Positions 5,589-39,264 of a stretch of 39,264 nucleotides of DNA are shown piece by piece; position 1 is the first letter of the stretch; each line of letters starts with the position of its first letter. A program made the position numbers and the translations under genes. Below the pieces are notes generated by a model. The model saw nothing but the letters and a program-made list of their open reading frames with translations. It searched no databases and had not been told where the DNA came from. The DNA is from an uncultured Opitutia bacterium (GTDB lineage: Bacteria > Verrucomicrobiota > Verrucomicrobiia > Opitutales > Opitutaceae), in contig CAIKTR010000045.1 in the NCBI GenBank assembly GCA_903830425.1, forward strand, positions 1 to 39,264, written 5' to 3'.

Positions 5589-7343
5589 TCAGCGGGCCGC
5601 CAGGTATTTTTTCACCGCCGCCAGGTCGCGGGTGTTGAACACCGACTCCCGCGTGAGCCAGCCTTTCCGCGCGGCATTGAGGCCGGCGCGCACGTGCTCC
5701 AGCCCGCCCGTCTCGTGGGCGTCCGGGTTGATCGCGGTCAGCAGCCCCTTGTCCGCCGCCTTGCGCCAGAGGCGCCAGTCCATGTCCAGCCGCCACGGGT
5801 TCGCGTTCAGCTCGATGATGACGCCGTGCGCGATGGCCGCGTCGATCACCTTGGCCGCATCGAGGCGGTAGCCCTCGCGGCGCAGCAGCAGCCGGCCGGT
5901 CAGGTGGCCCAGCATCGTTGTGCGCGGGTGCTCGATCGCCCGGATCAGCCGCGCCGTCATCACCGCCTCCTCCTGCGTGAAGGCGTTGTGCACCGAGGCG
6001 ACGACGTAATCGAGCGACGCCAGCACCGCGTCCTCATAGTCGAGCCGGCCGTCGGCCAGGATGTCGCATTCCACCCCGGCAAACACGTGGGTCGGGTGGC
6101 GCGCCGCGGCGTTCAGCGCGCGGATCTCGGCCACCTGCCGCTGCAGCCGCTCCACGCTGAGCCCGTTCGCCTGGTAGCTCGACTTCGAGTGGTCCGCGAT
6201 GCCGAGGTACTCCCAGCCCAGCGCCGCCGCGGCCGCGGTCATTTCCTCGAGCGTGCTCCGGCCGTCGGAGGCCGTGGTGTGATTGTGAAAGGCCCCGCGC
6301 AAGTCGCCGGCCGCAACCAGCCGGGGCAGCGCGCCGGACTCCGCCGCCGCGATTTCGCCGAAGCCTTCGCGCAGCTCCGGCGGGATGTCGTGCAACCCAA
6401 GCGCCGCGAACAGCTCCGCCTCCGTCTGCACGCCGACCCCCGCCCGCTGCTCCGCCTTTTCCTTCGCGGTCCCCTCGCCGGCCGCCGGCACCAGCCCCCA
6501 CTCGCTCAGGCTCAGCCCCCGGGCCAGCGCCCGCTGGCGCAGTTCCACGTTGTGGTCCTTGGAGCCCGTGAAGTGATGCAGGGCGAAGACAAACTGGTCG
6601 TCCGGCACGATCCGGAGGTCCGCCTGCAGGCCGCTCTCGAAACGCACGCTCGCCTTGGTCTCGCCCTGCGCCGTGACCTCCTTCACGCCCGGCTGGCCCG
6701 TGAACCAGGCCACCACCGGCGCCACCTCGGTCGCCGCCACGATGAAATCCAGGTCTCCCACCGTCTCCAGCCCGCGCCGCAGGCTGCCCGCCGCCTCCGC
6801 CCGCCGCACCTGCGGCAGCCGCCGCAGCCCCGCCACGATCGGCTCGGCGATCGCCGCCGCCTCCCACCACAGGTGCCGCCGCCCGTACGCCTCGCGGTTC
6901 CGGATGCCCTCGAGAATCTTCGCCTGCGTCTTCTCGCCAAAGCCCGCCAGCTCCGCCACCCGCCCGTCCGTGCACGCCTGCGCCAGCGCCGCAATGCCCG
7001 CCAGCCCGAGCTGGGTGTGCAGCGCCCGGATCTTCTTCGGACCCAGGCCCGGGATCTGCAGCATCTCCTCCAGGCCGGGCGCCAGCGACGCCTTCAGCTG
7101 GTCGTAGAAGGCCAGCCGGCCCGTCGTGTGCAGCTCGGTGATCTTCTGGACGAGGGCCTCCCCGAGGCCCTTGACCGTCTGCAGCTCCCCCGCCGCCAGC
7201 AGGCGGGCCAGCTCGGCGTCCTCCAGGGTCTCCAGCACGCGGGCGCCGGTCTGGTAGGCCCGCACCTTGAAGGGGTTTTCGCCCTTCAGCTCGAGCAGCG
7301 TGCCGATCTCCGCCAGCACGTCGGCAATCTCGTTTTTGGTCAT
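5589..7343 (-). CDS. polX: DNA polymerase/3'-5' exonuclease PolX
   Basis: This 584-residue protein has the full bacterial PolX architecture. N-terminal helix-hairpin-helix repeats ([10 protein letters not shown] near 59-68, [12 protein letters not shown] at 97-108) bind DNA. A family-X nucleotidyltransferase core follows, with GSLRR (186-190), the catalytic pair in GDLDF (D197, D199) and a third Asp in ADLRI (D242). The C-terminal PHP phosphoesterase domain has HNH at 353-355, GIADHSK at 381-387, a GVECDI block and NPDAHET near the end. PolX enzymes fill short gaps in base-excision repair and trim ends through the PHP domain. The ATG at 7343 matches the family N-terminus [14 protein letters not shown]. 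All key residues appear present. It converges with the sugar transferase and is transcribed away from the thioesterase. Confidence 0.95.
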
Positions 7344-37877: not shown

Positions 37878-38912
37878 TCAGCCGTACTTCGCCGCCAGCG
37901 TCCGGCCGGTCCGCGCGCTGCGGTCCGCCAGGTCGAGAATGTGAATCGGCCGGCGGGCCCACTCCGCCGTGATGATCAGCGGGGTGCCCTTCGTGAGGTG
38001 CGCCGCGACGTTGGCATAATACCGCGGCCACTGCGTCGGCGGGTTCTTCCCCTTGGTCACGGTCGTTGTCTCCCCGTCGCGGAGGGTGATCTCGTGGTTC
38101 TCATAGTCCCACCAGAAGGTGCCCTTGGTGCCGGTGACCTCCATCATGCCGCGCTTCGGGTTGGCGTCGATGTTCGTGATGCAGAGCGTCGCCCAGACGC
38201 CGCTGCGGAAGCGGACGACGGCATAACCCTCGTCCTCCACCGTGTCCGCGCCCCACTTCGACTGGGCGGCCCAGTAGCCGCGCTTGGCGAAGCCCGAGAC
38301 CTCGGTGACCTCGGAGTCCACCAGCTGCAGGGTGTATTCCAGCACGTGGACGCCCCAGTCGTAGAGGACGCCGCCGGAGATGGACTTGCTGGAGCGCCAC
38401 CAGTCGCCGGGCTTGCCCCACTGGCCCATGTGCGCCTCGACCCGGACGAGGTCGCCGAGGGCGCCGGAGCGCAGCACCTCGAGCGCCTTCAGGATGGAGC
38501 CGTCCCAGTGGCGGTTGTGGAAGGTCGAGAGCATGACGCCGGCTTTTTTCGCCGCGGCGATCATGGCGTCGCACTCCTGGGTGGTGATGGCGAAGGGCTT
38601 TTCACAGACCACATGGCGGCCGGCCTTCAGGCACTGCAGCGCGAGCGGCGCGTGGGTGTTGTGCGGGGTGATCAGCACCACCAGGTTAACATCCGACTTC
38701 GCCAGCATCTCGCTCACGCTGGAGTAGGTCTGGATGCCAGGAAACTCCTGGGCCGCCACCGCCAGCCGGGCGGCATCGGGCTCCGTCACCGCCCGCGGCG
38801 TCATGCCCGCCTTCTGCATGTCCTGCAGGTGCATGCGCCCCATGTTAAAGGCGCCACCGTAGCCGATGACGCCGACTTTGATTTCTTGGGGGTGTTTGAA
38901 GCGGGATTTCAT
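37878..38912 (-). CDS. Gfo/Idh/MocA-family oxidoreductase
   Basis: This 344-residue NAD(P)-dependent oxidoreductase has the Rossmann loop VGVIGYGGAFNMGRMH at 13-28. The catalytic-region lysine lies in VVCEKPFAITT, and the Asp/His pair in GGVLYDWGVHVLEYTLQLV. The C-terminal alpha/beta domain contains ATLCITNIDANPKRGMMEVTG. Substrates of this family are usually sugars, inositols or sugar acids. I prefer the ATG at 38912, since it gives a short N-terminus before the first strand. It is cytoplasmic (no signal). A hairpin at 38973-38999 lies upstream, and no clear promoter is visible. Confidence 0.9.
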   Translation of the reverse strand: MKSRFKHPQEIKVGVIGYGGAFNMGRMHLQDMQKAGMTPRAVTEPDAARLAVAAQEFPGIQTYSSVSEMLAKSDVNLVVLITPHNTHAPLALQCLKAGRHVVCEKPFAITTQECDAMIAAAKKAGVMLSTFHNRHWDGSILKALEVLRSGALGDLVRVEAHMGQWGKPGDWWRSSKSISGGVLYDWGVHVLEYTLQLVDSEVTEVSGFAKRGYWAAQSKWGADTVEDEGYAVVRFRSGVWATLCITNIDANPKRGMMEVTGTKGTFWWDYENHEITLRDGETTTVTKGKNPPTQWPRYYANVAAHLTKGTPLIITAEWARRPIHILDLADRSARTGRTLAAKYG

Positions 38913-38972
38913 GGAGGGGAAAGGGAGGCGGGGCAAAAACGCAGGCGCCAAGCTCTGTGCCTAAGGTGTTGG

Positions 38973-39059: not shown

Positions 39060-39130
39060 GCGCCGGGCACCCCGGATTTCAATACTTGCGGCGCAATTTT
39101 TTTTCATGCATGGTGCGCGGCCTTGTGTTG

Positions 39131-39168
39131 GGCGCGGTTGCCAAGTGGTAAGGCCGAGGTCTGCAAAA
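39131..39168 (+). tRNA. Broken tRNA-Cys(GCA): 5' half only
   Basis: GGCGCGG (39131-39137) fits a tRNA-Cys acceptor 5' strand. GCCAAGTGGTAAGGC (39140-39154) is a standard D-arm with the invariant GG. The anticodon loop CTGCAAA (39161-39167) holds anticodon GCA. The anticodon 5' stem GAGGT needs ACCTC afterwards, but only the first A (39168) matches and the sequence then becomes TCGAA. No T-arm or 3' acceptor strand (CCGCGCC) follows within the remaining 96 bp. The gene is therefore interrupted or truncated at about base 39 of the tRNA. Confidence 0.75.
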
Positions 39169-39240
39169 TCGAACAGGCCATTTTAGCCTGAATTCGACCA
39201 AGTCACCTTGCGTCACAAAAGTCCGAATACGAGTGGACTT
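39169..39240 (+). other. Structured AT-richer DNA directly after the tRNA half
   Basis: TCGAA-CAGGC (39169-39178) pairs with GCCTG (39186-39190) and TTCGA (39193-39197), with a 7-nt loop and a 2-nt bulge. AAGTCC (39219-39224) pairs with GGACTT (39235-39240), and an outer CACAA/TTGTG can extend it with a bulge. The composition is clearly less GC-rich than the rest of the window. It may be the end of an integrated element or part of a structured RNA; no coding sequence is visible. Confidence 0.5.
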
Positions 39241-39264
39241 GTGCGTTTAGGCTATTCGCTTGCG

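Follow-up and report, generated by a model that had tools for sequence, protein, structure and literature searches.

A tRNA gene that breaks off in mid-sequence

The window analysed here, i.e. the whole stretch of 39,264 nt, is one entire contig (C45) of the draft assembly G000, which comprises 3.51 Mb in 254 contigs. Close to its right edge a tRNA-Cys(GCA) gene breaks off, and the question is what has cut it. Direct reading shows the first 38 bases of the gene (39131-39168), with G1 at 39131, the anticodon at 39163-39165 and A39168, one base past the anticodon loop, as the final matching base. The window stops at 39264, 96 bases beyond the break. The features of the region, including those assigned in the following sections, are:

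37878-38951, minus strand: host flanking gene, a Gfo/Idh/MocA oxidoreductase (Pfam)
39072-39130, plus strand: presumably native promoter-side DNA upstream of tRNA-Cys, conserved in the genus (same-genus alignments)
39131-39168, plus strand: 5′ half of tRNA-Cys(GCA), probably a displaced fragment at an attL junction (the gene is complete in 10 of 11 other genomes of the genus)
39161-39167, plus strand: anticodon loop CTGCAAA, 7 nt, the putative 7-bp crossover (overlap) region (left-end boundaries of relatives)
39169-39264, plus strand: very probable left end of an integrated element, cut by the contig end (nhmmer profile; blastn to G007 and G026)
39174-39190, plus strand: inverted repeat CAGGC-CATTTTA-GCCTG at the element end (read from the sequence)

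ARAGORN detected no complete tRNA in the window. The initial annotation had suggested searching for the missing 3′ half, for an integrase gene and for a second, full tRNA-Cys elsewhere in the genome, and none of the three turned up in the assembly. A typed pattern of the 3′ half had no match in the rest of the assembly at up to two mismatches, a second copy of the 5′ half was found nowhere else in it (E 0.001), and the 39 tRNA genes above the Rfam cut-off include no Cys gene. The 3′ half lies off the assembly because the contig ends at 39264.

The uninterrupted site in related genomes

The last 395 bases of the window matched 87 of 95 genomes, G000 counted, chiefly through the tRNA half. Ten of the 11 other genomes of the same genus aligned over about 39072-39168 with 77-90% identity, and all of these alignments ended at query position 299, i.e. 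at exactly 39168, which confirms the annotated break just after the anticodon loop; the remaining genome, G011, had no match to the window edge. The tRNA-Cys gene is complete in those ten genomes. By eye, the DNA upstream of it is conserved and the DNA downstream of it differs between genomes, and with this distribution the half in the window would most simply be the native, promoter-side copy of the gene.

The 96 bases behind the break

The DNA that follows the break resembles the left ends of inserts in other genomes. A nhmmer profile yielded one match in the window (39169-39220) with an E-value of 1.8e-11, which is flattering because the 10 members of the profile, drawn from 24 left ends, had been picked partly for their likeness to the window (the window itself and L065 of G007 were excluded). 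With blastn, the 96-base stretch was 81% identical to contig C73 of G007 over 99 nt and 79% identical to contig C60 of G026 over 53 nt. In G007 this left end stands behind an apparent 5′ half of tRNA-Arg(CCG), identified as Arg by eye, and in G026 behind the 5′ half of tRNA-Met(CAT). A scan of 252 genomes of the family with the 96-base stretch gave matches in four at E 0.01, including G000 itself and the marginal case of G127 (0.00999). G060 matched when the tRNA half was included (66 nt, 92%), but not with the 96-base stretch alone.

The hairpin starting with TCGAA that had been annotated behind the break is present, by inspection, as an inverted repeat, with the arms TCGAA (39169-39173) and TTCGA (39193-39197) as well as CAGGC (39174-39178) and GCCTG (39186-39190). 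Comparable inverted repeats were seen by eye in the left ends L166 and L162. RNA folding of 39120-39264 showed nothing out of the ordinary (z = −1.31).

Elements with both ends visible

In four genomes a complete tRNA is preceded by a 5′ half of its own kind, at distances of 1.9 kb (G060), 1.9 kb (G028), 8.0 kb (G031) and 5.9 kb (G026). The halves are 100% identical to the complete tRNA in G060, G031 and G026, and 97.4% identical in G028. The target is tRNA-Cys in G060, G028 and G031, and tRNA-Met in G026, the element that has the left end of the window. The inserts of the relatives measure about 1.7-12 kb, and at their end stands a complete tRNA that has a 5′ half of its own. These paired halves show that the elements restore the 5′ half of the tRNA, not the 3′ half.

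A Phage_integrase gene (Pfam) adjoins the complete tRNA in G026 and G031 and is transcribed away from it; at the G026 locus (L067) the integrase ORF beside the rebuilt tRNA is whole in the integrated state (369 aa). The inserts of about 1.9 kb at tRNA-Cys in G060 and G028 have only short integrase remnants beside the rebuilt tRNA, and their cargo consists of toxin-antitoxin-type genes (PIN; Gp49-like with HTH). Among seven element proteins searched with PADLOC, only the toxin-antitoxin-type pair of G028 gave hits, which were weak, and among 10 element proteins searched against PHROGs the integrase alone was matched. One cargo protein of the G026 element (L067:2873-3679, reverse strand) had no hit in PHROGs or PADLOC; judged by eye, it presumably resembles RelA/SpoT-type synthetases.

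Two further observations concern individual loci. In G060, the same 74-nt stretch with integrase remnants precedes both tRNA-Cys 5′ halves (L062:4083-4195 and 6004-6116), which suggests a repeated or tandem insertion at tRNA-Cys. A reading of this stretch as a duplicated promoter was rejected, as the coding remnants of the integrase N-terminus lie there. At L124:14214-14250, a tRNA-Met-like 5′ half with a loop resembling CCGTTAA instead of CTCATAA is followed by a typical left end.

Proposed origin of the broken gene

Very probably, a small integrative element that restores the 5′ half sits in tRNA-Cys, with its attL junction at 39168/39169. Such an element would have entered the sole visible tRNA-Cys gene of a host that, judging from its relatives, is presumably of the Opitutaceae type, a tyrosine integrase recombining its attP with the anticodon loop of the gene. 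The chromosomal promoter side and 5′ half would have been left at the left junction as a dead fragment, and the far end of the element, carrying a 5′ half of its own, would have joined the chromosomal 3′ half and thus rebuilt a full tRNA-Cys. The integrase gene, where it survives, would adjoin the rebuilt tRNA and be transcribed away from it. By analogy with the relatives, the far end of the G000 element probably follows the same plan; it is unseen because the assembly contains no clade integrase at E 1e-20, no exact arm-repeat pair, no second 5′ half and no 3′ half. The initial annotation had already proposed that a tyrosine recombinase may have inserted an element at the anticodon loop and that the break marks one of its ends, and the relatives visible from end to end support this; what had been missed is the unusual polarity, i.e. 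that the 5′ half is restored.

A variant that overlaps with this explanation is that the G000 element is decayed and immobile and, like those of G060 and G028, contains an integrase fossil and toxin-antitoxin-type cargo. The existence of these two inserts of about 1.9 kb at tRNA-Cys with mere integrase remnants is in line with the variant, and so is the finding that the G000 assembly contains no integrase of the clade at E 1e-20. However, the far part of the element is absent from the assembly, so that the absence of an integrase says little, and we regard the decayed state as possible but somewhat less probable than an alternative condition of the element. The integrase of the clade is likewise absent, at E 1e-20, from the assembly of G007, which has the closest left end. 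G000 has four Phage_integrase matches, all short of the clade score, and by eye those on C1 (cut by the contig end) and C178 lack the GVDIPTVSRWLGH stretch of the clade.

Two other explanations are very unlikely. Under tRNA-dependent lysogeny, the element would break tRNA-Cys without rebuilding it and carry a complete tRNA-Cys elsewhere inside. The phenomenon is known in actinobacteriophages, according to the parts of the report cited here (PMC10865867), and no intact tRNA-Cys is visible in the G000 assembly; yet in related elements that can be followed from end to end, the tRNA is rebuilt with the 5′ half that the element itself carries. An assembly chimera or a plain decayed tRNA fragment might be suspected from a break 96 bases from a contig end in an assembly of 254 contigs, but in two further assemblies other 5′ halves are likewise followed at once by a similar sequence. 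Moreover, the half retains its conserved upstream DNA and its syntenic neighbour: DNA matching the 5′ region of the oxidoreductase gene was found about 1.5-3.0 kb from tRNA-Cys in five genomes of the genus (G003, G004, G005, G007 and G008).

The chance of a group I intron that splits the tRNA in or beside the anticodon loop, which had been annotated as a second option and is compatible with the position near the loop and with a weak P1-like pairing, is negligible: cmscan reported no intron core at the gathering threshold in the window (which holds only 96 nt of the insert) or in five related loci spanning 8-16 kb each, and none at an E-value threshold in the last 335 bases, while in four of those five loci the insert is closed at its far end by a complete tRNA and the same left end occurs behind halves of different tRNAs (Arg by eye).

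Polarity and distribution of the integrase clade

The polarity described above is shared by an integrase clade. Relatives of the G026 integrase were found in 78 of 252 genomes of the family (E 1e-20). At the best 30 family loci, the tRNA lies on the strand opposite to the integrase in 25 cases and on the same strand in three (all Leu-TAG), and two loci have no tRNA. A set of 41 chosen family regions comprised 29 with a 5′-facing tRNA, four with a 3′-facing tRNA, seven without a nearby tRNA, and one (L159) without an integrase. The four 3′-facing cases among the 33 regions with a nearby tRNA involve Leu-TAG (twice), Leu-CAG and Lys-TTT. A downstream 3′ fragment was found in two family regions, L135, which is itself 5′-facing, and L152.

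An alignment of 20 integrases, two of them from 3′-facing loci, was used to scan named genomes, and the best 80 of 414 relatives were analysed. Five residues (R229, H315, R318, H341 and Y352) are invariant in the 20 aligned proteins and would represent the catalytic set of the integrase. A tRNA lies within 500 bp at 72 of these best 80 of 414 loci and is lacking at eight, and in all 72 cases the 5′ end of the tRNA faces the integrase. Sixteen tRNA species are represented in the 72 loci, the commonest being Met (20), Ser-CGA (9), Arg-CCT (8) and Arg-TCT (8). An upstream 5′ fragment beside the full tRNA was detected at 17 of the 72 loci (14 starting from base 1, three from bases 5-8), and a downstream 3′ fragment at none, within the fetched DNA. 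At the other 55 loci, the 5′ fragment may lie beyond the fetched flank or the contig, or may have been lost.

According to the record titles, 75 of the best 80 of 414 loci belong to Verrucomicrobiota. The remaining five are L166 (Obscuribacter), L172 (Proteobacteria), L220 (KSB1), L193 and L225; some of the loci from outside Verrucomicrobiota are perhaps misbinned. A quick-method tree of 91 integrases, 81 of them five-facing and 10 three-facing, required three changes of the side label, compared to 9.7 after shuffling; the placement of L152 is unsure, with a long branch.

IMG/VR contains 34 relatives of the integrase, the best of which is 52% identical over nearly the whole query. Phage and plasmid records contain 18 and two distant relatives, respectively (E 1e-15), with about 23-26% identity among the 10 phage and two plasmid matches listed. 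The typed left-end pattern had no exact match in viral contigs.

For comparison, the integrase located directly behind tRNA-Cys in G007 was searched as a control in the same 252 genomes. This retrieved 29 loci, 10 without a tRNA and 19 with one, and all 19 are 3′-facing; one locus had been entered three times, and thus there are 17 distinct loci with a tRNA. Fifteen of these 17 are at tRNA-Cys. This canonical, 3′-half-restoring family (L066:3177-4250 and L276-L304) has the 3′ side of this tRNA-Cys gene as its target; in the bacterial family studied here, the gene seems to accept insertions on both sides. The clade offers a natural comparison of both polarities, even at one and the same tRNA-Cys gene.

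Architecture of the putative attachment sites

The position at which the identity to the tRNA copy stops was determined for 24 distinct left ends and counted from the anticodon start, so that +4 is the 3′ edge of the loop. It was +4 in 16 left ends, +5 in five (three of these boundaries were set by hand), +6 in two and −2 in one. The boundary thus lies at or near the anticodon loop in all but one of the 24 left ends from relatives, similar to the window, where identity ends at +5 (39168), and we infer that the crossover takes place within the anticodon loop.

Of 87 right ends, 79 have a tandem pair of 8-mers within 110 nt upstream of the rebuilt tRNA, whereas 30 shuffles gave 13.2 such ends on average and 21 at most. 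The repeat words vary by subclade (e.g. GGGTGACAA, GGGTTACAA, CAGTATCAG and GTGTAGAA), and the word of a right end reappears in its element's left end, frequently some 123-150 nt inside. For 20 elements, the repeat-word score was 8.15 for the element's own pair of ends versus 6.89 for foreign pairs, and none of 20,000 permutations reached the value of the own pairs. The match comprised eight or nine of nine positions in 16 of the 20 elements and six in the other four (L188, L191, L214 and L064). The joint change of the repeats at both ends argues that they are putative arm sites of the integrase, and the element ends look like attachment sites of lambda-type integrases. The window contig stops 96 nt into the element, short of the expected start of the arm repeats, and an exact arm-repeat pair was found nowhere in the G000 assembly.

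At the right end, the rebuilt tRNA would be driven by a promoter in the DNA of the element. Upstream of the 87 rebuilt tRNAs, positional information is weak, with an AT-rich stretch from about −16 to −7. An AARYC-type motif occurs between −40 and −15 in 34 of the 87 cases, compared to 9.7 in shuffles, and hairpins with scores of at least 7 occur in 17 of 87, compared to 7.4% in shuffles; as promoter signals, both are suggestive only.

We tentatively propose, with less confidence than the attL assignment itself and as a view that may well prove wrong, that restoration of the 5′ half is the standard mode of the whole, Verrucomicrobiota-wide clade, that tRNA genes are thereby pulled off their native promoters, and that dead elements are retained. 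If this is true, element DNA supplied by the insert would control essential host tRNA genes. Loss of the right end of an element would then cost the host its tRNA, and therefore even dead elements would be held; the integrase-gene fossils of G060 and G028 still lie beside the rebuilt tRNA-Cys.

Relation to known systems

Elements that restore the 5′ half are known, but rare. The Islander collection of 3919 islands includes 3760 with a 3′ fragment and 159 with a 5′ fragment, according to the parts cited here (PMC4383910). As described there, the islands of the latter class share with the present clade a tyrosine integrase, a site in the anticodon loop and a 5′ fragment upstream of the regenerated tRNA. 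They are a minority of 4%, whereas here this arrangement is the usual mode of one integrase clade, which differs from that description also in the range of its targets (16 tRNA species among the named loci) and in an integrase gene that is divergent from the rebuilt tRNA. Members of the clade may well already sit unremarked in the tables of Islander or TIGER.

An archaeal review states, in the portion used here, that the pTN3-like integrases of Thermococcales restore the 5′ half and, citing Williams 2002, that bacteria rarely show a comparable arrangement (PMC8371274). Integration of pTN3 is described as splitting the integrase gene and separating the tRNA from its original promoter (PMC5495485, in part). 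Restoration of the 5′ half and a rebuilt tRNA severed from its original promoter are thus shared features. pTN3 differs, however, in having its attP within the integrase gene, and integration splits that gene. Integrated elements of the present clade can retain an uninterrupted integrase ORF; in the relatives, e.g. L067, it stands whole beside the rebuilt tRNA, with no split of the pTN3 type. In archaea, tRNA fragments are reported to arise by element insertion (PMC9897764, in the part cited).

The canonical integrases, which restore the 3′ half, share tRNA targets and the enzyme superfamily with the clade, but they have the opposite polarity, and the native promoter stays on the rebuilt tRNA. 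The phages with tRNA-dependent lysogeny also integrate so that they overlap a tRNA gene; unlike in the present elements, their core is about 10 bp and the tRNA is not rebuilt, as far as the cited parts of the description go (PMC10865867). Among the top-ranked titles and the beginnings of abstracts in the literature, a 5′-restoring integrase clade in Verrucomicrobiota is not described. The interest lies not in the kind of island but in its consistent use by a large clade. It raises the question of whether an element controls the transcription of an essential host tRNA and is stabilised by it. In addition, contig breaks inside such elements, like the one in the window, may explain some tRNA genes that are seemingly absent from draft genomes.

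Other incomplete tRNA genes in the same assembly

Three further loci of G000 were noted. On the reverse strand of L077 (C115:1-3000), at about 142-202, a broken 5′ half of tRNA-Leu(CAA) was recognised by eye. It lies about 140 nt from the contig end, and behind it are GTGTAGAA-like repeats of the sort seen in another subclade; an intact Leu-CAA gene is not among the tRNAs detected in G000. L078 (C95:2793-2847, reverse strand) is, by eye, a 3′ half of tRNA-Met with a weak Rfam hit (19.3 bits). An intact tRNA-Met on that strand lies about 2.2 kb upstream of it, an arrangement of the conventional polarity. At L074 (C178:24000-30060), the contig ends inside a tRNA-Gly(CCC), and a tyrosine integrase gene lies directly behind the 3′ end of the tRNA.
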